From: Gari tellinella
Lineage: Eukaryota; Mollusca; Bivalvia; Cardiida; Psammobiidae
NCBI GenBank assembly: GCA_922989275.2
Contig: OV277863.1
Coordinates: forward strand, 21,232,001-21,296,000
Length of the DNA stretch: 64,000 nt
Direction: 5' to 3'
Shown here: positions 30,601 to 63,720 of the stretch, in pieces
How the letters are laid out: each line of letters starts with the position of its first letter
Position numbering within the stretch: position 1 is the stretch's first letter
Notes under the pieces: model-generated
Told to the model about the DNA's origin: nothing
What the model saw: the letters and a program-made list of their open reading frames with translations, nothing else
Databases searched by the model: none
Position numbers and translations under genes: made by a program

Positions 30601-31336
30601 ATTACATACAAAATGGAACGGCGATCGTTAGGCAGAATAGTGGACATCACTAGATTATCGATAAAATGCTCTACGATAGCGTGAGAGTCCGTCAATGTTC
30701 GGCTCTTATCGATCGGTATTTACGGAAACTCCCGACGACTTTTTGAACATGTGAATTTTATTTTCAATTTGAAAAAGGACCAAATTAACATTAACTTACA
30801 ATTCTTAAATTTATATCAAAAGAAAGAACAAATATTCAATTATACGAGCCCGTTTGCACAGAATTGATATCCATTTGTATAAATGCACAAGGTCGTGTTA
30901 TATTATCCGTGTCGAGGCTTATTTTCAGCATTTTACTCTTTGTTTAATGTGATTTAGAGGTGTCTTTTTAAACTTAAAAAAGGACCAAAATCTTATTAAA
31001 ATATTTTTTCAGAACAATTCCATCATAAAGGAAAATGTTTAAGCTAACACAGGCCGTTTGCACAGGAACGATATCTGTCCAGAAAAAAAAGTAATTACAA
31101 GTTATGTAAAAATGCCCTTGTTATTTTAATGCTCGTAAATGAGAGCAAGTGGGCCACCTGCGTGTCAACTATTCTGCGTAACGGTTTAGAAACTATGTAG
31201 GATTTATTTTTTATCTGTGTTGCATACATTTTCTAGCTTTATCGGACGCTGAGTTACTCTTACTTGAACCTCGTTGCAATGAATGCAATGAATATAATTG
31301 TTTCAATACAAACAAATGGTAATATATTAGAATAGG

Positions 31337-31586
31337 TACAGTGGAGAATGTGTTATTCTTTCCCAATAAACGCGTTTACGCTAAAACTATTATTTACGAT
31401 ACAAACAGTTTGGAGCCAGATCAGACGCCGGGTAAACCGGCGTCTGATCAAGCTCCAAACTGTTTGCCACCAAGATAAACATGAATTATCAGAATTGTCT
31501 AAAAATTGTTCTTTTCTACGTTTTAGTGCTTTGCGTTTGCGTACGTTTGCGTTTAAACGGGAAAGAATAACAGATTCTCCACTGTA
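31337..31586 (+). mobile_element. Family A MITE, left boundary of the 2.96-kb duplication
   Basis: TA-flanked element with inverted ends CAGTGGAGAATGTG.. / ..GATTCTCCACTG and an internal hairpin. Diagnostic bases: GTGTTATTC, GGTAAACC, GATAAACATG, CTAAAAATTG, TTCTACGTTTTAGTG. Confidence 0.95.
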
Positions 31587-31993
31587 CTACCCCACTATAT
31601 ATAGACTTGCTTTCCACTTGTGCCTATAGTAATATGATAAGGGTCAAAACTGTTGGCAGTCCAGTTTAAGATAAATAGTCAAAAGTGTACACTGTCTACA
31701 ATGCAGATACATGTAGTATAGTACTCTCTTAATGTGTAGTAGACTTTAGCTTAATGCATAAGATTTCTGGTTTACTTTAAGCCTGTATTACATGTAAGCA
31801 GTTCCCTGTGCAAAAGAATAAAACATAATCACCTTATGCATGGCCACTAAACATTTGTCTGACTGTTGTTAATTAACCTGTCGGTAATAAGGGAGATATG
31901 CATCAAAGAGGCAGTGCTTCATATTTTATTGATGTATGTACGGTTATCTTCCCCTATGATGCTCATATACAGAGTCTGTAATAATTCATATAT

Positions 31994-32105
31994 ACTGTAA
32001 AAAACCTCTATTACGACCACTTAAATAAGGTTAATGGATTGTATGGAAGACGGGTGATAGTTTCTCTTAAAGAGGTATTCTGTTTTACTTTCACCTTGCT
32101 TAAGA
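31994..32105. mobile_element. Partial family C MITE in duplication unit (copy 2 near 34946-35057)
   Basis: ACTGTAAAAAACCTCTATTA then CGACCACTTAAATAAGG, and TTCTGTTTTACTTTCACCTTG. The right end is missing. Confidence 0.65.
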
Positions 32106-32306
32106 TAAAACATATTTGTTTCCAGAAATACACATTGTTACAAGTACATACATATGCATGCAGTATAGGGACACTTTTAAGATTGAAACGAAAGAGTAAT
32201 CTTATTGAATTTCTCACCTTGTAGCCACCTGCTTTTATATTTAATATCAAATGACTAGCATAATTTTATGTTCATAAAAGAGCACGAGTTTGCGTCTCGT
32301 TTGTGT

Positions 32307-32556
32307 TATACCCATTAGTCCATAAATACGCCTTTTTACGCCTTTAATTTATTCCTCCTCTTAAGGAAAAATTGTCAATTTATTCAGTCATGGTTAAGTA
32401 TTATAAGATTTTTTCCATATTCTAGCAGATTAAAGCTTAAAGTAGGCTGAAAGTAAAGCAGAATGTGCTTTCAGGCACATTCTGTTTTACTTTCAACCTA
32501 CTTTAAGTGGTTACCCGTTTTCAAAACTAGAAACAGGCTATGGGGTAATGGTTTAA
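32307..32556. mobile_element. Family B3 MITE in duplication unit, copy 1 (copy 2 at 35259-35508)
   Basis: TTATACCCATTAGTCC start, GGGTAATGGTTTAA end, hairpin GAAAGTAAAGCAGAATGTGC around TTTCAG. Followed by a G-run whose length differs between the two copies. Confidence 0.85.
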
Positions 32557-33617
32557 AGCGGGGGGGGGATTAATGTTGCCAATAATACACTGTCCTTACG
32601 ATGTAAAACACACATTAATTGTTTTAACAATTCATTGATTTAACGTGAATGTGACACTGTTTTTTCTCTCGGAAACACCGTTTAACCATTAACAGGCTGT
32701 CCAATTGTCGTCTACAAAGTGTGCTGTCTGCAACAATACTCAAACTTGATTTATCTGCAGTTTTCTTTCAGAAAAATATATTAAGTGTGTCAAACAAGTT
32801 GAATCAAGATGAGACAACGAGTTACTAGGCGTCATATCTTAGTAAAAGGTAATCACAAATAAACTCGTAGCATGCAGACAGTTAAAACAACAACTGTCAA
32901 GCGCCACTTCCTAGTGACAAAAACGGTTTGAAATGAACCCGACATCGTTAATTTATTGGACCCTAGAGACGAGTATATTCGTCCGAAACAAACAGTGTAC
33001 CTTTAAAAGAGTTCATTTATATTATATTTACATTCACTCTGTAATGTCTTTATGTAATCCTATTAAAAATCTGCAGGTCATCCCTCGATGAACCTACACT
33101 TCGAATCTGGTTTTAGCCAGTTCGGATTTCGCCCGTGATATTCGTGGACTTCTTCAAATACACTACATCGGGCACTTAACACTAAGCTCCCATTGGTCGA
33201 CGGTCATATGACACTAGCGGAGTGATACAGACCCATAGGTCGTTGCCATCGCGTTGCTATGTGTGTAAATGGGATAAGAAAACAACCGCGACCTGTATTT
33301 TTAGAATGTGCTTTGGCAATAGATATTCAAGTTGCACTGTTATTTGTTTGCCTTGTAAGTCTTTTCCATTCACAGAGAGAAAGTTTACTGGAAAAAATCC
33401 TGAATTTTTAATACAGTTACAGTACATGTAGTTGGGACTACTTTCTCACCATATTTAGAAACTGGAATGGCTATTACATCGACATTACATCTACCAAACC
33501 TCGTTGACCGGTATATGATTAATTCTTATACAGAAAAACAAAGCTGGCCAATAAACACATTAAATTGACAAGACAGAAAATATAAATATAAGGAATAAAC
33601 AACATCTCTTTGCCGCT

Positions 33618-33725
33618 CATGACGGTATGACTACATTAGCTTCGGGGGGTAAATTTAACGAAAAGGCCCTTCGGGCGTTTACGTAATTTACCCCCTGCGA
33701 AGCTAATGTAGTCATACCGTCATGA
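33618..33725. repeat. About 107-bp imperfect hairpin inside duplicated unit U (copy 1)
   Basis: Arms TCATGACGGTATGACTACAT / its complement, continuing through TTAGCTTCG and TTACCCCC with a GGCCCTTCGGGC loop region. The second copy is at 36579-36686. No terminal repeat family was recognised around it. Confidence 0.85.
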
Positions 33726-34288
33726 ACGTCAAAAATATGTTGTTTATTCCTATAATGCACAACCTGTAGACCTAGATCTATTGAATCCTGCACGTTGTGT
33801 GCATTGTTTGTCATGTGGCATAATATTGTACAAAGCAACTCTTAATCGTAAGAAATGGGCTAGATAAAAATCGTTAACAGGAAGTATCCATTTGAAGTTT
33901 AAGGGGTGATTAATCCATTTAAAAACTGAATAAATGTGTTTTGTTCAATTTGTCGCCTGCTGAAGTTCGTATATAGAGTCAGTTTATATGAATTTTACCA
34001 GTGTACATACTTTTGCCAACAATACAGACCCAAATCATTTCCATCTTAAGACATGTGTGTGCCTCGCATCTGATCAGGCTCCGAACTATTTGCCACTCAG
34101 ATTAAAACCAAGTGTTATACATTTCTAAATACTGACATTTTCTACATTTTATTGCCATGTGTTTGCGTTTCGTTTGCGTTTAAACGGGAAGGAATAACGC
34201 ATTCGCCACTGTATGTGTATAGAATAAAACCGTTACATGACATGTTGTACTCACATTGATTTCCTGCATACGATATTGTTGAAACACG

Positions 34289-34538
34289 TACAGTGGAGAA
34301 TGTGTAATTCTTTCCCAATAAACGCGTTTACGCTAAAACTATTATTTACGATACAAACAGTTTGGAGCCAGATCAGACGCCGGGTAACCCGGCGTCTGAT
34401 CAAGCTCCAAACTGTTTGCCACCAAGATAATCATGAATTATCAGAATTGTCTAAAAGTTGTTCTTTTCTACGTTTTAGTGCTTTGCGTTTGCGTACGTTT
34501 GCGTTTAAACGGGAAAGAATAACAGATTCTCCACTGTA
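34289..34538 (+). mobile_element. Family A MITE, chimeric middle copy
   Basis: Its left part matches the right-hand MITE (GTGTAATTC, GGTAACCC, GATAATCATG, CTAAAAGTTG). Its right part and flank match the left-hand MITE (TTCTACGTTTTAGTG, then TACTACCCC). The switch lies between 34457 and 34470. Confidence 0.93.
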
Positions 34539-37249
34539 CTACCCCACTATATATAGACTTGCTTTCCACTTGTGCCTATAGTAATATGATTAGGGTCAAA
34601 ACTGTTGGCAGTCCAGTTTAAGATAAATAGTCAAAAGTGTACACTGTCTACAATGCAGATACATGTAGTATAGTACTCTCTTAATGTGTAGTAGACTTTA
34701 GCTTAATGCATAAGATTTCTGGTTTACTTTAAGCCTGTATTACATGTAAGCAGTTCCCTGTGCAAAAGAATAAAACATAATCACCTTATGCATGGCCACT
34801 AAACATTTGTCTGACTGTTGTTAATTAACCTGTCGGTAATAAGGGAGATATGCATCAAAGAGGCAGTGCTTCATATTTTATTGATGTATGTACGGTTATC
34901 TTCCCCTATGATGCTCATATACAGAGTCTGTAATAATTCATATATACTGTAAAAAACCTCTATTACGACCACTTAAATAAGGTTAATGGATTGTATGGAA
35001 GACAGGTGATAGTTTCTCTTAAAGAGGTATTCTGTTTTACTTTCACCTTGCTTAAGATAAAACATATTTGTTTCCAGAAATACACATTGTTACAAGTACA
35101 TACATATGCATGCAGTATAGGGACACTTTTAAGATTGAAACGAAAGAGTAATCTTATTGAATTTCTCACCTTGTAGCCACCTGCTTTTATATTTAATATC
35201 AAATGACTAGCATAATTTTATGTTCATAAAAGAGCACGAGTTTGCTTCTCGTTTGTGTTATACCCATTAGTCCATAAAAACGCCTTTTTACGCCTTTAAT
35301 TTATTCCTCCTCTTAAGAAAAAATTGTCAATTTATTCAGTCATGGTTAAGTATTATAAGATTGTTTCCATATTCTAGCAGATTAAAGCTTAAAGTAGGCT
35401 GAAAGTAAAGCAGAATGTGCTTTCAGGCACATTCTGTTTTACTTTCAACCTACTTTAAGTGGTTACCCGTTTTCAAAACTAGAAACAGGCTATGGGGTAA
35501 TGGTTTAAAGGGGGGGGGCGGGGGGGGGGGTAACGTTGCCAATAATACACTGTCCTTACGATGTAAAACACACATTTATTGTTTTAACAATTCATTGATT
35601 TCACGTGAATGTGACACTGTTTTTTCTCTCGGAAACACCGTTTAACCATTAACAGGCTGTCCAATTGTCGTCTACAAATTGTGCTGTCTGCAACAATACT
35701 CAAACTTGATTTATCTGCAGTTTTCTTTCAGAAAAATATATTAAGTGTGTCAAACAAGTTGAATCAAGATGAGACAACGAGTTTCTAGGCGTCATATCTT
35801 AGTAAAAGGTAATCACAAATAAACTCGTAGCATGCAGACAGTTAAAAACAACAACTGTCAAGCGCCACTTCCTAGTGACAAAAACGGTTTGAAATGAACC
35901 CGACATCGTTAATTTATTGGACCCTAGAGACGAGTATATTCGTCCGAAACAAACAGTGTACCTTTAAAAGAGTTCATTTATATTATATTTACATTCACTC
36001 TGTAATGTCTTTATGTAATCCTATTAAAAATCTGCAGGTCATCCCTCGATGAACCTACACTTCGAATCTGGTTTTAGCCAGTTCGGATTTCGCCCGTGAT
36101 ATTCGTGGACTTCTTCAAATACACTACATCGGGCACTTAACACTAAGCTCCCATTGGTCGACGGTCATATGACACTAGCGGAGTGATACAGACCCATAGG
36201 TCGTTGCCATCGCGTTGCTATGTGTGTAAATGGGATAAGAAAACAACCGCGACCTGTATTTTTAGAATGTGCTTTGGCAATAGATATTCAAGTTGCACTG
36301 TTATTTGTTTGCCTTGTAAGTCTTTTCCATTCACAGAGAGAAAGTTTACTGGAAAAAATCCTGAATTTTTAATACAGTTACAGTACATGTAGTTGGGACT
36401 ACTTTCTCACCATATTTAGAAACTGGAATGGCTATTACATCGACATTACATCTACCAAACCTCGTTGACCGGTATATGATTAATTCTTATACAGAAAAAC
36501 AAAGCTGGCCAATAAACACATTAAATTGACAAGACAGAAAATATAAATATAAGGAATAAACAACATCTCTTTGCCGCTCATGACGGTATGACTACATTAG
36601 CTTCGGGGGGTAAATTTAACGAAAAGGCCCTTCGGGCGTTTACGTAATTTACCCCCTGCGAAGCTAATGTAGTCATACCGTCATGAACGTCAAAAATATG
36701 TTGTTTATTCCTATAATGCACAACCTGTAGACCTAGATCTATTGAATCCTGCACGTTGTGTGCATTGTTTGTCATGTGGCATACTATTGTACAAAGCAAC
36801 TCTTAATCGTAAGAAATGGGCTAGATAAAAATCGTTAACAGGAAGTATCCATTTGAAGTTTAAGGGGTGATTAATCCATTTAAAAACTGAATAAATGTGT
36901 TTTGTTCAATTTGTCGCCTGCTGAAGTTCGTATATAGAGTCAGTTTATATGAATTTTACCAGTGTACATACTTTTGCCAACAATACAGACCCAAATCATT
37001 TCCATCTTAAGACATGTGTGTGCCTCGCATCTGATCAGGCTCCGAACTATTTGCCACTCAGATTAAAACCAAGTGTTATACATTTCTAAATACTGACATT
37101 TTCTACATTTTATTGCCATGTGTTTGCGTTTCGTTTGCGTTTAAACGGGAAGGAATAACGCATTCGCCACTGTATGTGTATAGAATAAAACCGTTACATG
37201 ACATGTTGTACTCACATTGATTTCCTGCATACGATATTGTTGAAACACG

Positions 37250-37499
37250 TACAGTGGAGAATGTGTAATTCTTTCCCAATAAACGCGTTTACGCTAAAAC
37301 TATTATTTACGATACAAACAGTTTGGAGCCAGATCAGACGCCGGGTAACCCGGCGTCTGATCAAGCTCCAAACTGTTTGCCACCAAGATAATCATGAATT
37401 ATCAGAATTGTCTAAAAGTTGTTCTTTTCTTCGTTTGAGTGCTTTGCGTTTGCGTACGTTTGCGTTTAAACGGGAAAGAATAACAGATTCTCCACTGTA
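37250..37499 (+). mobile_element. Family A MITE, right boundary of the 2.96-kb duplication
   Basis: Shares the left-half variants of the middle copy but has TTCTTCGTTTGAGTG in its right half and a unique right flank. A second, partial copy of its right end (AGATTCTCCACTGTA) follows at 37527-37541, after a TGACGTCA..TGATGTCA palindrome. Confidence 0.93.
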
Positions 37500-48989: not shown

Positions 48990-49230
48990 CTACTCCGACT
49001 TCAGCCCATTGATGCCGTTTTCTTGTATACCCGCCGTGTCTTTCCCCATACTCTTTTCTCTAAATACATCTGCAATCCATAATGCTGCAGAGACGGCAAA
49101 GAATGCCTGAAAACCATACATAAACCAAGGTCTGTATCCCTGGTTACCATATATACCATACTGACAGCCAATGACGTCACCAAGAATAAACAACAAACAC
49201 CTTAGGACTTCCCATTGTTTCGCTTTGGGA
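48990..49230 (-). CDS. AGMO: Alkylglycerol monooxygenase, last coding exon with stop
   Basis: A 241-bp terminal exon after a TTTTTTCAG acceptor, completing a phase-2 codon. It encodes PKAKQWEVLRCLLFILGD, a second hydrophobic stretch (FMYGFQAFFAVSAALWIAD) and a polar tail ending GINGLKSE before a TAG stop at 48990-48992. PKA...E.LRC matches the start of the last conserved block of vertebrate AGMO. The polar tail of about 20 residues looks lineage-specific. The eight exons in the window total 921 coding bases (307 residues) before the stop. Vertebrate AGMO is about 445 residues long. Confidence 0.9.
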
Positions 49231-49890: not shown

Positions 49891-49973
49891 CTGTTTTCAC
49901 AGATGAGACCCATACATGATAGGTTCAGGAAGGCATATACCACAAATATCAGCAAACTTGTCTGTGATAAACC
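49891..49973 (-). CDS. AGMO: Alkylglycerol monooxygenase, internal exon (C-terminal membrane segment)
   Basis: An 83-bp exon entering in phase 0 after GTTTCAG and leaving in phase 2 at an AG|GTTTGT donor. It encodes GLSQTSLLIFVVYAFLNLSC then MGLICEN, a hydrophobic membrane span matching the LSQ...-type helix of vertebrate AGMO. The split codon (AG + T) is completed by the last exon as serine, giving ENSPKAK. A partial family C MITE begins 26 bp upstream of the acceptor. Confidence 0.87.
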
Positions 49974-50619: not shown

Positions 50620-50736
50620 AGCTTTTCTTGCCGCCAATTCCTGAAAGCCAATAAGAACAAAGGTAAAGTGTACAAACACGTAAATGGACAACAGTCGTGG
50701 AAGCTTCGGGTCGTATCGTTTCACAGGTAGCTGAAC
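50620..50736 (-). CDS. AGMO: Alkylglycerol monooxygenase, internal exon (C-terminal membrane segment)
   Basis: A 117-bp exon of 39 codons, phase 0 at both ends, with a CTTTCAG acceptor and a GTGAGT donor. It encodes VQLPVKRYDPKLPRLL followed by a hydrophobic segment (SIYVFVHFTFVLIGFQ) and ELAARKA. The position and pattern correspond to the first of the C-terminal transmembrane helices of AGMO. A family B3 MITE ends only about 20 bp upstream of the acceptor. Confidence 0.88.
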
Positions 50737-52164: not shown

Positions 52165-52299
52165 CTCAGGGAGATCCTTTATATCACCTAGTCTTGGTTT
52201 CCCTGGTAACCATCCTGGACCACACAACATGACCTTGACCTTTTCAAACAGGCCAACGGCTTTTCTTAATCGTCCAAGCACGTACTGACTATATCCAAA
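52165..52299 (-). CDS. AGMO: Alkylglycerol monooxygenase, internal exon (GPGW motif)
   Basis: A 135-bp exon of 45 codons, phase 0 at both ends, with a TCCTATAG acceptor and a GTAGGA donor. It starts FGYSQYVLGRLRK and contains GPGWLPGKPRLGD followed by IKDLPE. The GPGW.PGKPRLG signature is highly characteristic of AGMO and is the single most diagnostic motif in this window. The stretch before it (helical, basic) is poorly conserved relative to vertebrates but has nearly the same length, so I do not think an exon is missing here. Confidence 0.94.
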
Positions 52300-53805: not shown

Positions 53806-53888
53806 CTGTATATTAATTGGCTCGAATTTATTTATTGGATAGACCAGTCCATAAGCAATTTCTTCTTCCTTCTCTGCAGCAAACGTTC
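53806..53888 (-). CDS. AGMO: Alkylglycerol monooxygenase, internal exon
   Basis: An 83-bp exon after a TTTTCCAG acceptor, entering in phase 1 and leaving in phase 0 at a GTAATG donor. With the preceding G it encodes GTFAAEKEEE, then IAYGLVYPINKFEPINIQ. This aligns residue for residue with the segment of vertebrate AGMO that follows histidine box 3 (G-T-F-E-A-E... Y-G-L... P-I-N.F-E-P-I). The acidic/basic stretch AEKEEE is at a position that is also charged in vertebrates. It lies 861 bp downstream of the box-3 exon and 1.5 kb upstream of the next exon. Confidence 0.93.
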
Positions 53889-54749: not shown

Positions 54750-54882
54750 CAAACATTCTGTCCCATATTATAAGAACACCCGCATAGTTCTTGTCTATAC
54801 AGTAAGGGTTCCTGCCATGGTGTACTCTGTGATGACTTGGGGTGTTCAAGATATACTCCAGTGGACCAAGACTCTTGATATA
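54750..54882 (-). CDS. AGMO: Alkylglycerol monooxygenase, histidine-box-3 exon (the complete copy of an 11-copy array)
   Basis: A 133-bp exon that starts in phase 0 after a TTTTCAG acceptor and ends in phase 1 at a G|GTACGC donor. It encodes [19 protein letters not shown], then GRN..., then ends [10 protein letters not shown]. The HRVHH motif is the third histidine box, whose histidines bind the catalytic iron in this family. Joined to the next exon it reads M-F-G-T-F, as in vertebrate AGMO. It is the last (most 3') member of a 137-bp-period tandem array and the only one with the final 19 bp and a donor, so it is the only copy able to splice forward in frame. The array lies immediately upstream on the minus strand. 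Confidence 0.95.
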
Positions 54883-56252
54883 CTGAAAACAATAAACAAC
54901 ATTCCTATAAGAACACCAGCATAGTTATTGTCTATACAGTAAGGGTTCCTGTCATGGTGTACTCTGTGATGATTTGGGGTGTTCAAGATATACTCCAGTG
55001 GACCAAGACTCTTGATATACTGAAAACAGAAAACAACATTCATATTAGAACACCAGCATAGTTCTTGTCTATACAGTAAGGGTTCCTGCCATGGTGTACT
55101 CTGTGATGACTTGGGGTGTTCAAGATATACTCCAGTGGACCAAGACTCTTGATATACTGAAAACATTAAACAACATTTCTATTAGAACACCAGATTAGTT
55201 CTTGTCTATACAGTAAGGGTTCCTGCCATGGTGTACTCTGTGATGACTTGGGATGTTCAAGATATACTCCAGTGGACCAAGACTCTTGATATACTGAAAA
55301 CATTAAACAACATTCCTATAAGAACACCGGCATAGTTCTTGTCTATACAGTAAGGGTTCCTGCCATGGTGTACTCTGTGATGACTTGGGATGTTCAAGAT
55401 ATACTCCAGTGGACCAAGACTCTTGATATACTGAAAAAATTAAACAACATTCCTATAAGAACACCAGCATAGTTCTTGTCTATACAATGAGGGTTCCTGC
55501 CATGGTGTACTCTGTGGTGACTTGGGGTGTTCAAGATATACTCCAGTGGACCAAGACTCTTGATATACTGAAATCATTAAACAACATTCCTATAAGAACA
55601 CCATCATAGTTCTTGTCTATACAGTAAGGGTTCCTGTCATGGTGTACTCTGTAATGACTTGGGGTGTTCAAGATATACTCCAGGGGACCGAGACTCTTGA
55701 TATACTGAAAACAGTAAACAACATTCCTATAAGAACACCAGCATAGTTCTTGTCTATACAGTAAGGGTTCCTGTCATGATGTACTCTGTGGTGACTTGGG
55801 GTGTTCAAGATATACTCCAGTGGACCAAGACTCTTGATATACTGAAAACAATAAACAACATTCCTATAAGAACACCAGCATAGTTCTTGTCTATACAGTA
55901 AGGGTTCCTGCCATGGTGTACTCTGTGATGACTTGGGGTGTTCAAGATATACTCCAGTGGACCAAGACTCTTGATATACTGAAAACATTAAACAACATTC
56001 CTATTAGAACACTAGCATAGTTCTTGTCTATACAGTAAGGGTTCCTGCCATGATGTACTCTGTGGTGACTTGGGGTGTTCAAGATATACTCCAGTGGACC
56101 GAGACTCTTGATATACTGAAAACATTAAACAACATTCCTATAAGAACACCAGCATAGTTCTTGTCTATACAGTAAGGGTTCCTGCCATGGTGTACTCTGT
56201 GATGGCTTGGGGTGTTCAAGATAAACTCCAGGGGACCGAGACTCTTGATATA
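54883..56252 (-). repeat. Tandem array of ten truncated AGMO box-3 exon copies, 137-bp period
   Basis: Ten head-to-tail copies lie directly upstream of the complete exon. A shared landmark (GTTCTTGTCTATACAG on plus) recurs at 54787 (complete exon), 54924, 55061, 55198, 55335, 55472, 55609, 55746, 55883, 56020 and 56157, always 137 bp apart. The landmark carries a substitution in the copy at 54924. Each unit has the splice acceptor (all keep CAG), the first 114 bp of the exon (38 codons through GVLI) and 23 bp of intron-like sequence leading to the next acceptor. None has the last 19 exon bases or a GT donor at the exon end. Copies differ by a few substitutions; for example HHG becomes HHD in those at 54924, 55609 and 55746. 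Because 137 is not a multiple of three, reading from one copy into the next hits a stop. They are decoy acceptors or inert duplicates, not usable alternative exons. Confidence 0.95.
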
Positions 56253-56261
56253 CTGAAACAA

Positions 56262-56284
56262 CTGGTAATAATAATAATAATAAA
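56262..56284. repeat. (AAT)n microsatellite
   Basis: A run of AAT repeats between the outermost AGMO exon copy and the satellite-bearing element. On the minus strand it forms the ATT-rich stretch ahead of the copy-11 acceptor. Confidence 0.9.
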
Positions 56285-56929
56285 CCATTCCTATACCAAA
56301 GCTACTGTCCCGGATTATATAGACTACGAGCTACTGAACACCCCCCTCCCCCCATGTGGGGACTTTTGAACACCATACTTTTCTGAAACCTCATTGTCTT
56401 CCGAGTACATTCGGGTTTTCTGCACTTTGTACGTTGGGGCTTTACCTTGTCAGAGCAAATTGAAATTACCTCCCCTTTGTGAAAATTAAATTCTGATTGA
56501 TAATGTAACAATGACTTGTTTTAGTTGCAAAATAGCTGTTCTTCACTGATATCACCATTGTTTTTATGGAGACATAATATCTATCCCAAGAATCGATCGA
56601 AACGAGTGTTTTTCTTACTTTTTTACTGAATTATCTCCCCTTGAATATATCGAATACCATAAAAACTAGTTAATTCATAGTTTATTACATTTAAAGCTTC
56701 TTTGAAAACCTAGTTTTTCTTTAAATGATGATAAAATATTCAACTGGGTGTAGTGAGGATGTTTTCTAACATACATTTATTATATTTTCGCGGACAATAT
56801 TCTAAAATTATTTAAAAGTCTTAAATTATGAAATAACAAAAATACCGACAAAGACTTAAATACGGTTAATAACTGTAAGAAATAAGATTCTGAGAATTAC
56901 AAAGGATTCATGGATCATGGAAATGGATA

Positions 56930-59900
56930 ATACACGGATACGGTGCTAAAAAACCTTTTCTAGAGGCGGCCCATGGACCCATACAGTGCTACAACCCTTT
57001 TGTAGAGGCGGTCCATCAACGGATACTGTTTAATTAGTGCTATAATAGTTATCTAGAGGCGGTCCACCAACGGATACAGTTCTGGAAACGGCATATACTG
57101 GCGGTCCACCAACGGATACAGTACTACAAACGTTATCTAGAGGAGGGAAACCCACGGATACAGTGCTCAATCCCTTTTCTAGATTCGGGCCACCAACGGG
57201 AACAGTGCTACAAACCTTTTGTAGAGGCGGTCTACAAACAGATACAGTGCTATATAGGTTATATAGAGGCAGTCCACCAACGAATACAGTACTAGAAACA
57301 TTATATAGATGCGGTCCATTAATTGATACACTGCTAGAAAAGGTATCAACAGACTGTTCACCAACGGATACACTGCTATAAACAGTATCTTGAGGTGGTC
57401 CATCAAAGGATATTGCTAGAAACCCTTTCTAGAGGCGTTCCACTAACATAATTATACAGGGCTAAAACGTTATCTAAGGGCGGTCCACCTATGGATACAG
57501 TGCTAAAAAGTTATCCAGAGGCGGACCACCAATATATACAGTGCTTTAAACGTTATCTAGAGGCGGTCCAACAACAGGTACAGTGCTAAAAAGTTATATA
57601 GAGGCGGTCAACCATCATATACAGTGCTTTAAACCTTATCTACAGGTGATCCACCAACAGATACAGTGGGAAAAAGTTATCTAGAGGCGGTTAACCATCA
57701 TATACAGTGCTTTTAACGTTATCTACAGGTGGTCCATCAACGGATACAGTGCTGGAAACGGTATATACAGGCATCCACCAACAGATACAGCGCTAAAAAG
57801 TTATCTTGAAGCGATCCACCAACATATACAATGCTTTAAACGTTATCTAGAGGCGGTCCACCAACGGATACAGTGCTAGAAAAGCAACAAAGAGGCGTTC
57901 CACCAAGGGATACAGTGCTAGAACCTTTACAATAGACGGTTCATAAACCGACACAGTACTTGAAACTTTTTGTAGAGTCGGTCCACAAACGGATACAGTG
58001 CTAAAAAGTTATCTAGAGGCGGTTCACTAACAGATACAGTGCTAGAAATGTTATATATAGGCGGTCCCCCAACGGATACATTGCTAGAAACGTTATCAAG
58101 AGGAGGTCCACCAACAGATACAGTGCTAGAAACGTTATCTACAGGCAATCCACCAGCGGATACAGTACTTTAAACGTTATATAGAGGCATTCCACCAACG
58201 GATACTGTGCTACTAAAGTTATCTAGAGGTGGTCCACCAACGGATACAGTGGTAAAAAGGTTATCTAGAGGCAGTCCACCAACGAATACATTGCTAGAAA
58301 CGTTTTCTAGAGGCATTCCACCAACGGATACATGGCTAGAAACGTTATCTAGAGGAGGTCACCAACCGATTTAGTGCTAGAAACGTTATCTAGAGGCGGT
58401 CCACCAACAGATACAGTGCTTAAAAATTATCTAGAGGAGGTCCACCAGCGGATACAGTGCTTTAAACGTAATAGAGAGGCATTCCACAAATGGATACAGT
58501 GCTACTAAAGTTATCTAGAGGTGGTCCACCATCGGATACAGTGGTAAAAAGGTTATCTAGAGGCAGTCCACCAACGAATACATTACTAGAACCGTTTTCT
58601 AGAGGCAGTCCACCAACGGATACATGGCTAGAAACGTTATCTAGGAGGTCTACCAACCGATTCAGTGCTAGAAACGTTATCTAGAGGCGGTCCACAAATG
58701 AATACAGTGTTAGAAACGTTATCTAGAGGAGGTCTACCAACGGATACAGTGCTAAAAAGGGTTATCTAGAGGCGTCCCCAACACATACAGTTCTAAAATC
58801 TTTTCCAGACGCGGTCCACCAATGGACACACTGCTGAAAGCCTTTTGTAGAGGAGGTCCACCAACGGATACAGTGCTAAAAACGGTATCTAGAGGCGGTC
58901 CACCAATAGATACAGTGTTAGAAACGTTACCTAGAGGAGGTTTACTTACGGATACAGTACTAAAAACGGTTATCTAGAGGCGTCCCCAACACATACAGTG
59001 CTAAAATCTTTTCCTGACGCGGTCCACCAACGGACACACTGCTGGAAACCTTTTTTAGAGGAGGTCCACCAACGGATACAAAGCTAAAAACGGTATCTAG
59101 AGGCGGTCCACCTACGGATACAGTGCTAGAAACACTTTGTAGAGGCGGTCCACCAACGGATACAGTGCTTTAAATGTTATCTACAGGCGGATCATCAATG
59201 GAAACAGTATTTTAAACGTTATTTAAAGTCGGTCAACTAACGGATACAGTGCTACAAACGTTATCTACAGGCGGTCCACCAGCGGATACAGTGCTAAAAA
59301 CGTTATCTACAGGAGGTCCACCAACAGGGAAATGTTATCTACAGGAGGTCAACCAACGGATACAGTGCTAGAAACGTTATCTAGAGGACGTCTACCTATG
59401 GGTACAGTGTCAGAAACCTTTTATAGAGGCCGTCCATCAACGGATACAGTGCTAGAAATATATTTTAAAGGCGTTCCACCAACGGATACAGTGCTTAAAA
59501 TGTTATCTACAGGCGTTTCATCAACGGAAACAGTGCTTTAAACGGTATCTTAAGTCAGTCAACTAACGGAAACAGTGCTAGAAACGTTATTTTCAGGCGG
59601 TCCATAAACTGATACAGTGCTATGTTCAACGTTATCTAAAGGCAGTCCACCAGCGGATATAGTGCTAAAACCTTTTGTAGAGGCGGTCAACCAACGGATA
59701 CAGTTTTTTAAAAGTTATCTAGAGTCGATCCACCAACGGGTACAGTGCAGGAAATGGTAAACATTGTATACTGGCGGTACACCAACAGATACAGTGCTAG
59801 GAACGTTATCTACAGGCGGTCCACCAACGGATACATGCTAGAAACCTTTTCTAGAGGACGTCCAAAAATGGATATAGTGCTTGAAACCTTTTCTAGAGGT

Positions 59901-60340
59901 TGCCCACCAACGGATACAGTGCTAGAAACCTTTTCTAGAGGCTGCCCACCAACGGATACTAGTATAGTGCTAGAAACGTTATCTATAGGAGGTCCACTAA
60001 CGGATTTAGTGTTAGAAACATTATCTAGAGGACGTCCACCAATGGATATAGTGCTAGAAACCTTTTCTAGAGGCCATCCACCAACGGATACAGTGCTAAA
60101 ACTTTATTTAAAGGCGGTCCATCAACGGATTCAGTGCTAAAATGTTATCTACAGGCTGTCCACCAACATATACAGTGCTAGAAAGGTTATCTAGAAGCGT
60201 CCCCCAACGGATATAGTGCTAAAAAGTTATATAAAGGCCGTCCACCAACTAATACAGTGCTAAAATGTTGTCTAAAGGCGGTCCACCAATGGATACATCA
60301 ACACCTCTATACATGTATAACCTTTCTAACACTGTATCCG
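56930..60340. repeat. 42-bp minisatellite array, about 3.4 kb (roughly 80 units)
   Basis: The unit is close to CTAGAGGCGGTCCACCAACG followed by GATACAGTGCTAGAAACGTT and AT. Units are imperfect, with single-base changes and small length variants. Because 42 is divisible by three, the array gives spurious frames repeating a 14-residue GPPTDTVLETLSR-like unit on plus and a G-G-P-P-L-D-N-like unit on minus. The frames break often, so it is not a coding repeat. Confidence 0.95.
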
Positions 60341-60359: not shown

Positions 60360-61258
60360 TTTTGTTCTTCTTGTTTTGTTTGAAAGGGAGGCAATTAGCT
60401 TACTCCCATCAATTTTTTTCTTTAAAGCAACCATCATATTGAATGCTTTTCACTTGATAATGTTGTAAAATAACATGTAATTGGCAACAAAGGACCTATG
60501 TTACTATGCAACTAACAATATACATGTACATGTATATCATAAAACTGCTTTTAACCCTAAATTAAGGGCAGACAATTCAAACAAAAGAAGACTTTTAGTT
60601 GTAAAAATTATCCTTTTCTATCAATTATGTGTAAAACTAGAATTGCCAGTTAAATTTTATAAATTGAAGTGTCTCTTTCTGTCCCAAAATAATGTTCGAC
60701 ATAATAACAATATGACAGAAATTAAAAAAAGGGAGGTAATATTTTTTGTTCAATTACACACAAAGACTGTGCTGTATAACCCAAAGGTTATATATTTAGT
60801 TTGTGGACATATAAGGCTTTCATGTAAAGAAGGTTTCGTAATTAGATCTTGTTTCTATGATATGTATTCAACATTTATAAAGGGAAAAGTGACTCGTTTT
60901 GTATAAAAACTGCATTCTGTACATTTAAGGGGAGATAATTTGAATAAAATTTGAGTTATGTCCAATTGTTTTTGCATTTTTTGCTTTCAGTTAGTTATGT
61001 TGCATTATTGAATCATTTTGTGTTAGATATATAAGTTTAATTAAAAAATTATATTAGTGCAACAACTACACATAAAAATACGTATTTCTCTATTTATGCA
61101 AGGGGAGATAATCTTCGAAGTCAAATTTTTTACTAAAGCCCCAACGCTCAAAGTGTAGAAAATAGGATTTGAACCTACAGACCCTGGACTTTCAGAAAAA
61201 CATAGTGACCAAAAGTCCCCCTATGGGACGAGGGTTCACATTATTGGTCAGCAGCCTA

Positions 61259-61338
61259 ATAAGAACACCAGCATAGTTCTTGTCTACACAATAAGGATTA
61301 CGGCCATGATGTACTCTGTTGTGACTTGAGGTGTTCGA
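61259..61338 (-). pseudogene. Isolated, divergent twelfth copy of the AGMO box-3 exon fragment
   Basis: On the minus strand this reads [19 protein letters not shown] then NYAGVLI, clearly the same exon, with several substitutions. Similarity fades upstream of the NT codons. Like the array copies it stops after GVLI and lacks the donor. It is 4.9 kb from the array, at the far edge of the satellite-bearing element. Its position in the same intron and the shared truncation point indicate a former array member. Confidence 0.85.
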
Positions 61339-61339
61339 G

Positions 61340-61548
61340 AAATTTGGTGTATGACGAGTTCCTCGTCCTATGCAGACAGTGTAAACCTAGATCACGGGGC
61401 TTATGCAGCCCTCTGATCAGGATCTGCACTGTTTGTTAAGCTGTAATATATTGCAAAACCAACCCTAATTGTCACAAGTGGACTAGACTTAAATGGAAAC
61501 AGAAATTGACCATAAATTGACAATTTGAAGTTCCAGTCAGAAATGAGC
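61340..61548. mobile_element. Degenerate B2 MITE
   Basis: GACGAGTTCCTCGTCCTATG, hairpin remnant GATCACGGGGCTTATGCAGC-CCTCTGATCAGGATCTGCAC and GTCAGAAATGAGCTAA end. Confidence 0.65.
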
Positions 61549-62177: not shown

Positions 62178-62273
62178 CTGTGTATGAATCCAGAATTGAA
62201 ATAGAATGTTGAGTTCTTCATGTGCGATGAATATTGATGGTGGTATGAACAATGCCAGAGGGAGATAGAACAC
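62178..62273 (-). CDS. AGMO: Alkylglycerol monooxygenase, internal exon (membrane segment before histidine box 3)
   Basis: A 96-bp exon of 32 codons, phase 0 at both ends, with an AG acceptor (TTCCTATAG) and a GTAAAT donor. The peptide contains LPLALFIPPS and ends NILFQFWIHTQ, matching the vertebrate AGMO transmembrane stretch and the FWIHT motif that immediately precedes the third histidine box. The next exon downstream on the minus strand is 7.3 kb away at 54882. The intervening intron holds a relic exon copy, a satellite-bearing element and the ten decoy exon copies. A degenerate family C MITE ends about 25 bp inside this intron. Confidence 0.93.
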
Positions 62274-62692: not shown

Positions 62693-63720
62693 GTTATTAT
62701 TATTATTATGCCAGATTTATTTAGCGCTCTTTTCACACAGGGGTAGTGCATTCAAAAGCGCTTCACATGAAATAACACAAATGTACCTACAAAGCGAGAA
62801 AAGACAAAATAACTACAATAAGATCTAAAACAAACATGAATAAACATATAAAAGACAGCCCCCAAAATGGCGATCACATTACTCCCATCAATCAGCAATG
62901 AAACGACCGGCCTCTGATTGTCGACTGATAGAAACAATGGTAGAGCGCCCAATGCAGGCCGCCAGGAAAAGACATTTAACTACATTTAGATCTAAAATAA
63001 ACATGAATAAACATACAAAAGACAGTCCCAAAATGGCGATCACATTGCCCCATCAATCAATTAGCAATGAAGCGAATGGCTTCTTAATGCCGACTGATAG
63101 AAATAACAGTAGAGCGCCCAATGAAGGCCACCGAGAAAAGACAAATAACTAACAAACATACAAAAGACAGCCCCCAAAACGGCGATTACATTACCCCATC
63201 AATCAATTAGCAATGAAGCAAATGGCTTCTTAATGCCGACTGGTAGAAATAATAGCAGAACGCCCAATGCAGGCCGCCCAATGTAACATAACTAGGACAA
63301 ATAGCATGCGACAATAACTAAACATTTCTATAAGAGACCGAAAACCAGATAATACTCCAGAACTCCCATTTGGACCCACAAAATCTACAGCAAGAACATA
63401 TCCCATAGGTAGCAGTGTTCTAATAACAAATATTAAAGAATTGTGTTTTCAGACGCTTTTTGAAGACTGCAACTGAGCTCGCATCTCTGATGTCTGATGG
63501 CAGAGTGTTCCAGAGCTTTGGGGCTGCATGCATGAAACTTCTATCTCCAAACCTCACCAAACGACTTCTCGGTACAACCAGCGATGTTATGACAAAAACA
63601 ACATGTGTTTGTGAAACACTATGTCCCCTTATAAGAGCATGGCCTCTATATGACATTGACCTTTGTCTGACATGACCGAATGAAATTTATATCACATGTA
63701 GTTCTAAAGTTATTGCAACG
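62693..63720 (-). mobile_element. LINE (non-LTR retrotransposon) 3' end, 5'-truncated
   Basis: On the minus strand a frame at 63656-63420 ends FGDRSFMHAAPKLWNTLPSD followed by IRDASSVAVFKKRLKTQFF. This is the typical C-terminus of reverse transcriptases of the CR1/L2/Jockey-like groups. It is followed by a 3' UTR with three repeats of about 150 bp and a tail ending in AGCGCTAAATAAATCTGG then (ATA/AAT)n. The element is 5'-truncated and lies in an AGMO intron, in the same orientation as the gene. The exact clade is uncertain. Confidence 0.75.
62826..63290 (-). repeat. Three tandem repeats of about 150-165 bp in the LINE 3' UTR
   Basis: Copies start near 62826, 62991 and 63151. They share AAAAGACAG, AATGGCGAT.ACATT, CCATCAATCA, TTAGCAATGAAGC and TAGAGCGCCCAAT blocks with about 80-90% similarity by eye. 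Confidence 0.8.

Follow-up and report, generated by a model that had tools for sequence, protein, structure and literature searches.

The window considered here, meaning the whole stretch of 64,000 nucleotides that was analysed (C8:21232001-21296000), belongs to a genome of 1.6 Gb in 80 contigs, which was searched. The placement of AGMO proteins on the 204 kb around the window recovered two tandem genes, both on the minus strand. Gene B, the carrier of the repeat array described below, is an intact model of 11 exons and 462 amino acids, and gene A, which lies upstream of it on the same strand, is an intact model of 11 exons and 487 amino acids. In both models together, 40 of 40 internal splice sites are GT or AG (20 of 20 in gene B), and 11 of 11 exons align to the AGMO protein P0001. 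The protein of gene B matches PF04116 (FA_hydroxylase, 96.6 bits) and PF24858 (AGMO C-terminal, 67.6 bits), both above the cut-off, and the protein of gene A also exceeds the cut-off for both families. The histidine motifs of AGMO are HxxxH, HxxHH, and HxxHH, and the gene B model, read by eye, has HRMSH, HQAHH, and HRVHH. Judged by these domains, gene B is an AGMO, as the earlier sequence-only reading had proposed, and tetrahydrobiopterin-dependent cleavage of ether lipids is its predicted function. The best named relatives of the AGMO proteins are bivalve (Mya, Crassostrea, Pinctada, Ostrea, and Mactra).

The supposition of the same reading that AGMO is a single-copy gene does not hold, given the two tandem intact gene models and a third AGMO paralog at C8:66.46 Mb, some 45 Mb away. 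Outside exon 6, genes A and B have a dS of 0.81 and a dN/dS of 0.11 (415 codons; pairwise average), and the pair has thus evolved under constraint. The last exon of gene A (exon 11, C8:21345310-21345628) contains a short coding repeat, NGLKNHTNGLKKH..., in the C-terminal tail, which is absent from gene B. The region of the third paralog yields two different matches to AGMO exon 4 (C8:66467427-66467534 and 66474966-66475079), which may represent more than one further AGMO gene there, or an extra exon.

The features of gene B that are relevant here, in the coordinates of the window and in the order in which the gene is read, are as follows.

62178..62273, minus strand: exon 5 of gene B (96 nt)
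61259..61343, minus strand: older partial copy of exon 6 (relic), 86% identical and located within intron 5; its 3' part is of B type (GGTGTTCTTAT)
56934..60297, no strand assigned: separate minisatellite of intron 5, located between relic and array (42-bp unit, ~78 copies; TRF)
56259..56300, minus strand: part of the intron immediately upstream of copy 0; it includes TATAGGAATG, which recurs at the unit junctions
54769..56258, minus strand: 137-bp tandem array, consisting of the 3' end of intron 5, the acceptor, and bases 1-114 of exon 6 (TRF, split into copies)
56139..56252, minus strand: copy 0, the 5'-most partial copy, with its own upstream sequence, TATAGGAATGGTTTATT(ATT)n...GTTTCAG
54750..54882, minus strand: complete exon 6 of gene B (copy 10, at the 3' end of the array; 133 nt long, with acceptor tttcag and donor gtacgc)
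53806..53888, minus strand: exon 7 of gene B (83 nt)
52165..52299, minus strand: exon 8 of gene B (135 nt)
50620..50736, minus strand: exon 9 of gene B (117 nt)
49891..49973, minus strand: exon 10 of gene B (83 nt)
48990..49230, minus strand: exon 11 of gene B, with the stop codon (gene model)

Other parts of the window contain a large tandem duplication of recent origin, with a ~2.95-kb period (31336-37499; segments 31336-34538 and 34288-37499 are 99.1% identical) and two open frames on the minus strand. The frame at 63420-63686 presumably resembles the end of a non-LTR retrotransposon reverse transcriptase, while that at 1323-1715, which contains a GCCGSC motif, is taken here to resemble a membrane-spanning exon, perhaps of a tetraspanin. 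The Rfam and tRNA scans of the window found nothing.

The array is situated within intron 5 of the gene itself and precedes the complete exon 6. TRF places it at 54769-56258, with a period of 137, 10.9 copies, 95% matches, 0% indels, and a score of 2700, and 11 acceptors (TTTCAG followed by TATATCAAGAG) are found on the minus strand, spaced by exactly 137 bp in 10 of 10 intervals. Each repeat unit joins 23 bases of the intron end, including the acceptor, to 114 of the 133 bases of exon 6, and the exon starts run from 56252 (copy 0) down to 54882 (copy 10). Copies 0-9 lack the last 19 exon bases and the donor, and copy 10 alone runs on to a donor, forming a complete exon that encodes 44 residues + (G); its acceptor is the only one of the 11 that yields the full 462-aa frame. 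The location, the 11 copies with their exact period, and the single complete copy at the 3' end had all been read correctly from the letters alone. The further claim that the ten partial copies retain both the acceptor and the HRVHH box stands for the acceptor (10 of 10), while the box is kept in only nine, given that copy 4 has lost its first histidine (YRVHH). In copy 7, in addition, the box is followed by an in-frame stop.

The copies differ from one another by a mean of 5.0% (116 bases, 55 pairs), and 11 of 11 are distinct. Tandem arrays are error-prone in assembly, and the copy number given here, which comes from one assembly, may be inexact. A faulty read consensus might even have expanded a single exon copy. 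Such an expansion appears improbable, however, considering that every copy differs from the others, that copy 0 is preceded by its own upstream sequence, that an older relic lies 5 kb away, and that unrelated arrays occupy exon boundaries elsewhere in the same genome.

A search of the genome with one unit (E <= 10; best candidates scored, very common words skipped) found matches in at least 14 places, and those listed are the 11 array copies, exon 6 of gene A, the relic at 61.3 kb, and exon 6 of the third paralog. The listed matches are thus all array, relic, or exon 6 of AGMO paralogs, which leaves the idea of a satellite captured by chance, or of a high-copy satellite unrelated to AGMO, as the sequence-only reading had envisaged, without support. 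The search also argues against copies of the unit beyond those listed. The exon peptide had no match in phage records. Beside both the array and the relic, similar stretches in inverted orientation were seen by eye (window 56330-56400 and 61150-61250), and these are perhaps a dispersed repeat.

The consequences for splicing depend on the reading frame. When acceptors 0-9 are read through to the last donor, a stop is met 96-171 nt into exon 6 in 10 of 10 cases, at least 99 nt before the exon 6 donor, and an mRNA with such an early stop usually decays. The pairing of an upstream acceptor with the exon 6 donor would therefore lengthen the exon unduly and introduce an early stop, and the resulting mRNA would be expected to decay. 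The copies could also be imagined as mutually exclusive alternative exons adding variety to the protein, with the HRVHH box kept in nine of the ten partial copies and a mild excess of silent changes over all variants. This scenario is rejected on the reading frames and the missing donor, and is the least credible of those considered: no exon 6 donor is present in copies 0-9, 137 is not a multiple of three, reading on to the last donor runs into a stop in every case, copy 7 carries a stop of its own, and copy 4 has lost a histidine of the box.

The scores of the ten decoy acceptors (6.4-10.5 bits) overlap with that of the real one (10.1 bits) and with the range of the 20 AGMO acceptors (5.0-14.2 bits) from which the matrix itself, a simple and small one, was built, so that matrix strength cannot separate decoy from true acceptor. 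The complete copy would presumably be chosen through exon definition, which is the most likely selector because only the last copy has a donor at exon distance (133 nt). Among the 20 donors, only three score lower than this one (4.9 bits). To judge by the intact frames and the constraint on the pair, gene B would be transcribed and correctly spliced. Near-identical splice sites of similar strength, only one of which is correct, represent natural experiments on the choice made by the spliceosome, that is, exon definition versus the nearest site.

The variation among the copies was also considered in terms of selection. The private variants of the 11 copies comprise nine that change an amino acid and four that are silent, in line with the changing fraction of 0.74 expected under neutrality (P 0.75), while the shared variants comprise two changing and five silent. 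Over all 20 distinct variants, 11 are changing and nine silent, a slight silent excess (one-sided P 0.051) that is carried by the shared variants. Some copies may have been corrected from a functional exon, or may be partly constrained. As the private variants look neutral, the partial copies resemble non-coding DNA that is perhaps corrected now and then. The complete copy, with a single silent variant and no amino-acid change, has in this respect the appearance of a working exon.

These observations bear on the possibility that the array acts as a splicing rheostat, in which the decoys would divert AGMO-B pre-mRNA to early-stop transcripts and the copy number would tune the dose of the enzyme. 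The AG is kept in 11 of 11 acceptors, with scores near that of the real one, an early stop follows from each of the ten decoys, and the weakness of the complete exon's donor (4.9 bits) points the same way. The neutral appearance of the private variants, however, speaks against such a role, as does the fact that arrays at the splice sites of this region are no commoner than chance. Amphioxus arrays of similar structure are, moreover, reported without disturbance of splicing in the available text of the sources (PMC3087553, PMC3902484). A rheostat is, on balance, unlikely.

The copies of the array have apparently not evolved in isolation. All four gametes occur in 10 of the 21 informative site pairs, and the copies have therefore exchanged sequence, unless the same sites mutated repeatedly; the homogenisation suggested by the earlier reading is supported to this extent. 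A spread of copies from neighbour to neighbour was discarded, as adjacent copies are hardly more similar than others (5.5 vs 5.8 differences).

A similar exchange seems to have linked the two genes. The first 101 bases of gene A exon 6 match those of the complete gene B copy except at one site, while the remaining 32 bases differ at 10 positions (nine of the last 31). In 20,000 permutations, based on 1,065 compared sites and 182 differences in nine equal-length exons, no 101-site window was as alike as this one, and the lowest count seen was two differences. Constraint on silent sites was ruled out as the cause of this identity: over the same 33 codons, 0.59 of the silent sites differ between gene A and the third paralog, and the identity is therefore attributed to a conversion tract. 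The relic provides some indication of its direction. In a 71-base comparison with 19 varying sites, the relic agrees with the third paralog against gene A and the array consensus at two sites (positions 70 and 75), with A and B against the third paralog at nine, and with A against B and the third paralog at one, and it has states of its own at the other seven. The two sites common to the relic and the third paralog hint, faintly, at a conversion from A to B. The tract suggests that sequence can be exchanged between an array and a functional exon in the gene next to it.

The letters at the edges of the unit offer a possible origin of the array. The intron end before copy 0 reads TATAGGAATGGTTTATT(ATT)n...GTTTCAG, which is probably the ancestral intron end with a microsatellite added later. 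The usual junction between units is GTTCTTATAGGAATG, with single-base variants in some copies, and the complete exon carries GTTCTTATAATATGG with TATA. The stretch at 56259..56300, with its TATAGGAATG, is likely to have been the intron-side partner in the founder slippage, with TATA in the intron set against TATA in the exon (...GTTCTTATAATATGG). A head-to-tail duplication of the segment at the intron 5/exon 6 boundary of gene B, probably through slippage or microhomology of these two TATA sites, would thus have founded the array, which would then have expanded to 11 copies via gene conversion and unequal exchange. With only one edge of the exon inside the unit, each duplication would leave a complete acceptor-to-donor exon at the 3' end of the array, and the protein would be spared. 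The relic at 61259-61343 has the same B-type end at 86% identity, so that this exon edge has probably been copied more than once.

The phenomenon is not peculiar to this exon, since boundary arrays are found also at three splice sites of gene A and at two myosin exons. The 40 internal boundaries of genes A and B were scanned for nearby repeats that span the boundary, and four are amplified: one in gene B, with the 10 further copies of the exon 6 acceptor, and three in gene A. The exon 4 donor of gene B has one single weak match (75%, E 0.002), which was not counted as an array. The other arrays recorded are the following.

C8:21357091-21358367: gene A exon 4 donor array, 62-bp unit, ~20 copies (19 further)
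C8:21350991-21351352: gene A exon 7 acceptor array, 40-bp unit, 8.9 copies (8 further), covering approximately the first 15 exon bases
C8:21348268-21348894: gene A exon 9 donor array, 145-bp unit, 4.3 copies (3 further), 97% matches
C16:2501966-2502074 and C9:25405930-25406055: short acceptor arrays at two myosin head exons

The exon 4 array of gene A lies downstream of the complete exon and combines the 3' part of the exon, the donor GTAAGT, and the intron start, with a 315-bp higher-order period also given by TRF, while the exon 9 unit contains most of the exon and the donor, without the acceptor. The myosin sample covers 20 regions and 27 of 82 matches, taken from the top of the list and thus non-random, and in two of these 27 exons a TRF array touches the exon start. 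One consists of 39-bp units with the acceptor and 11 exon bases; the other, a weaker case, has 40-bp units with ~3 exactly matching exon bases. One 21-base inverted match in the myosin self-comparison was left out of the count. One of the arrayed myosin exons starts with what is presumably the phosphate-binding loop, GESGAGKT. In the third paralog, no array was found within 60 bp of 14 approximate edges (seven exon matches).

Overall, boundary arrays are present at six of the 108 edges sampled, or five if the weaker myosin case is omitted. Tandem arrays with a period of at least 30 make up 11.5% of the 204 kb, 7.9% of the 60-kb region of the third paralog, and 4.1% of the myosin regions. Under a rotation null for the 204 kb, 4.6 of the 40 boundaries would be expected to fall in arrays, and three fall in TRF footprints (P(>=3) 0.76), a count that omits the exon 7 array of gene A, which in TRF ends 10 bp short of the boundary. 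As the captures are within this null, random capture suffices in the AGMO region.

The frequency of six in 108 edges, four of them in one gene pair, might nonetheless be attributed to an amplification mechanism specific to exons, for example one templated by RNA or guided by splice sites, rather than to random capture. Such a mechanism was rejected, there being no excess above the rotation null in the AGMO region, and it is very improbable: the captures there fit the density of minisatellites (three by TRF vs 4.6 expected), none lies near the 14 edges of the third paralog, and intron sequence is included in six of six units. The gene B array represents one outcome of a process also seen at further splice sites in a genome rich in tandem repeats, and boundary captures seem to be common in it.

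The most probable interpretation of the locus, to which a probability of roughly 0.8 is given, is that of a minisatellite of the type known as "mirages", which grew from a duplicated intron 5/exon 6 boundary and is spliced past. The array probably has no function of its own, and the absence of a benefit is inferred.

The sequence-only reading knew of no description of such an array, and this part of it has to be revised, given that repeats at the exon boundaries of amphioxus Adh3 and globins had already been named "mirages" (PMC3087553). In the available text of the amphioxus reports, these are minisatellites at exon-intron boundaries of Adh3, TnC, and the globins BflGb6 and BflGb9, with PGBD5 as a similar case, and the units of BflGb6 measure 150-160 bp (PMC3087553, PMC3902484). 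The same text describes an authentic exon that is kept, 3' and 5' splice sites that are both affected, many copies with splice signals, concerted evolution within clusters, regular splicing that is undisturbed, and an unstable length (PMC3087553, PMC3902484). The gene B unit resembles these in joining the end of intron 5, the acceptor, and 114 exon bases. The AGMO genes likewise have acceptor arrays (B exon 6, A exon 7) and donor arrays (A exons 4 and 9), each with a complete exon, and the 10 of 21 four-gamete pairs in the gene B array correspond to exchange, for which concerted evolution is the usual reading. The gene B array would therefore belong to the mirage kind by its structure, and the intact frame suggests, indirectly, that splicing may be regular here too. 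It differs from the amphioxus cases in that the host is not a cephalochordate, the named AGMO relatives being bivalve, in its 11 copies of 137 bp with 114 of 133 exon bases, including the catalytic box, and in the involvement of four boundaries of one tandem gene pair, with a conversion tract common to the array and the neighbouring paralog.

In human segmental duplications, boundary minisatellites occur in recently duplicated genes, with an average of four units of 30 bp, and slippage or unequal exchange has been proposed as their origin, with new introns and splice forms as the outcome, according to the available portion of the report (PMC2812944). In comparison with the cases described there, the AGMO frames suggest that an old intron was merely lengthened. 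Going by its title, the study of Zhuo et al. in 2007 reportedly concerns human introns that arose from tandem arrays. There is no sign of a new intron of this sort in AGMO, where all 11 exons align to P0001. The polyubiquitin gene UBC, as described in the accessible text, contains a tandem array of dual-specific splice sites, serving as donor and acceptor, within coding ubiquitin monomers (PMC10809524). The AGMO array is like UBC in having repeated splice sites in a tandem repeat, and unlike it in having a unit that is out of frame and only one kind of authentic site. The abalone TSSK1-like gene is another mollusc case of an intronic minisatellite, with a 27-bp unit and a copy number that differs among individuals, but it is not described as spanning a boundary in the part of the source available (PMC6905558). 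In the literature searched, which includes few subscription journals and some sources in partial text, the entries listed showed boundary-spanning minisatellites for amphioxus and human, and among them none for a mollusc.

Taken jointly, the results might mean that mirages form a genome-wide class (~1/20 splice sites, ~3- to 20-fold), that the arrays serve as reservoirs that convert the exons of paralogs, as in AGMO A and B, and that the copy number varies between individuals and changes the efficiency of splicing; this combined reading is tentative and, as a whole, rather doubtful. In relation to the known systems, the new elements are the lineage, the density of the arrays, decoy acceptors approximately equal to the real one by a simple matrix, and the A-B conversion tract. 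The AGMO locus extends boundary-spanning minisatellites from amphioxus and human duplicated genes to a bivalve, and suggests that they are frequent there.
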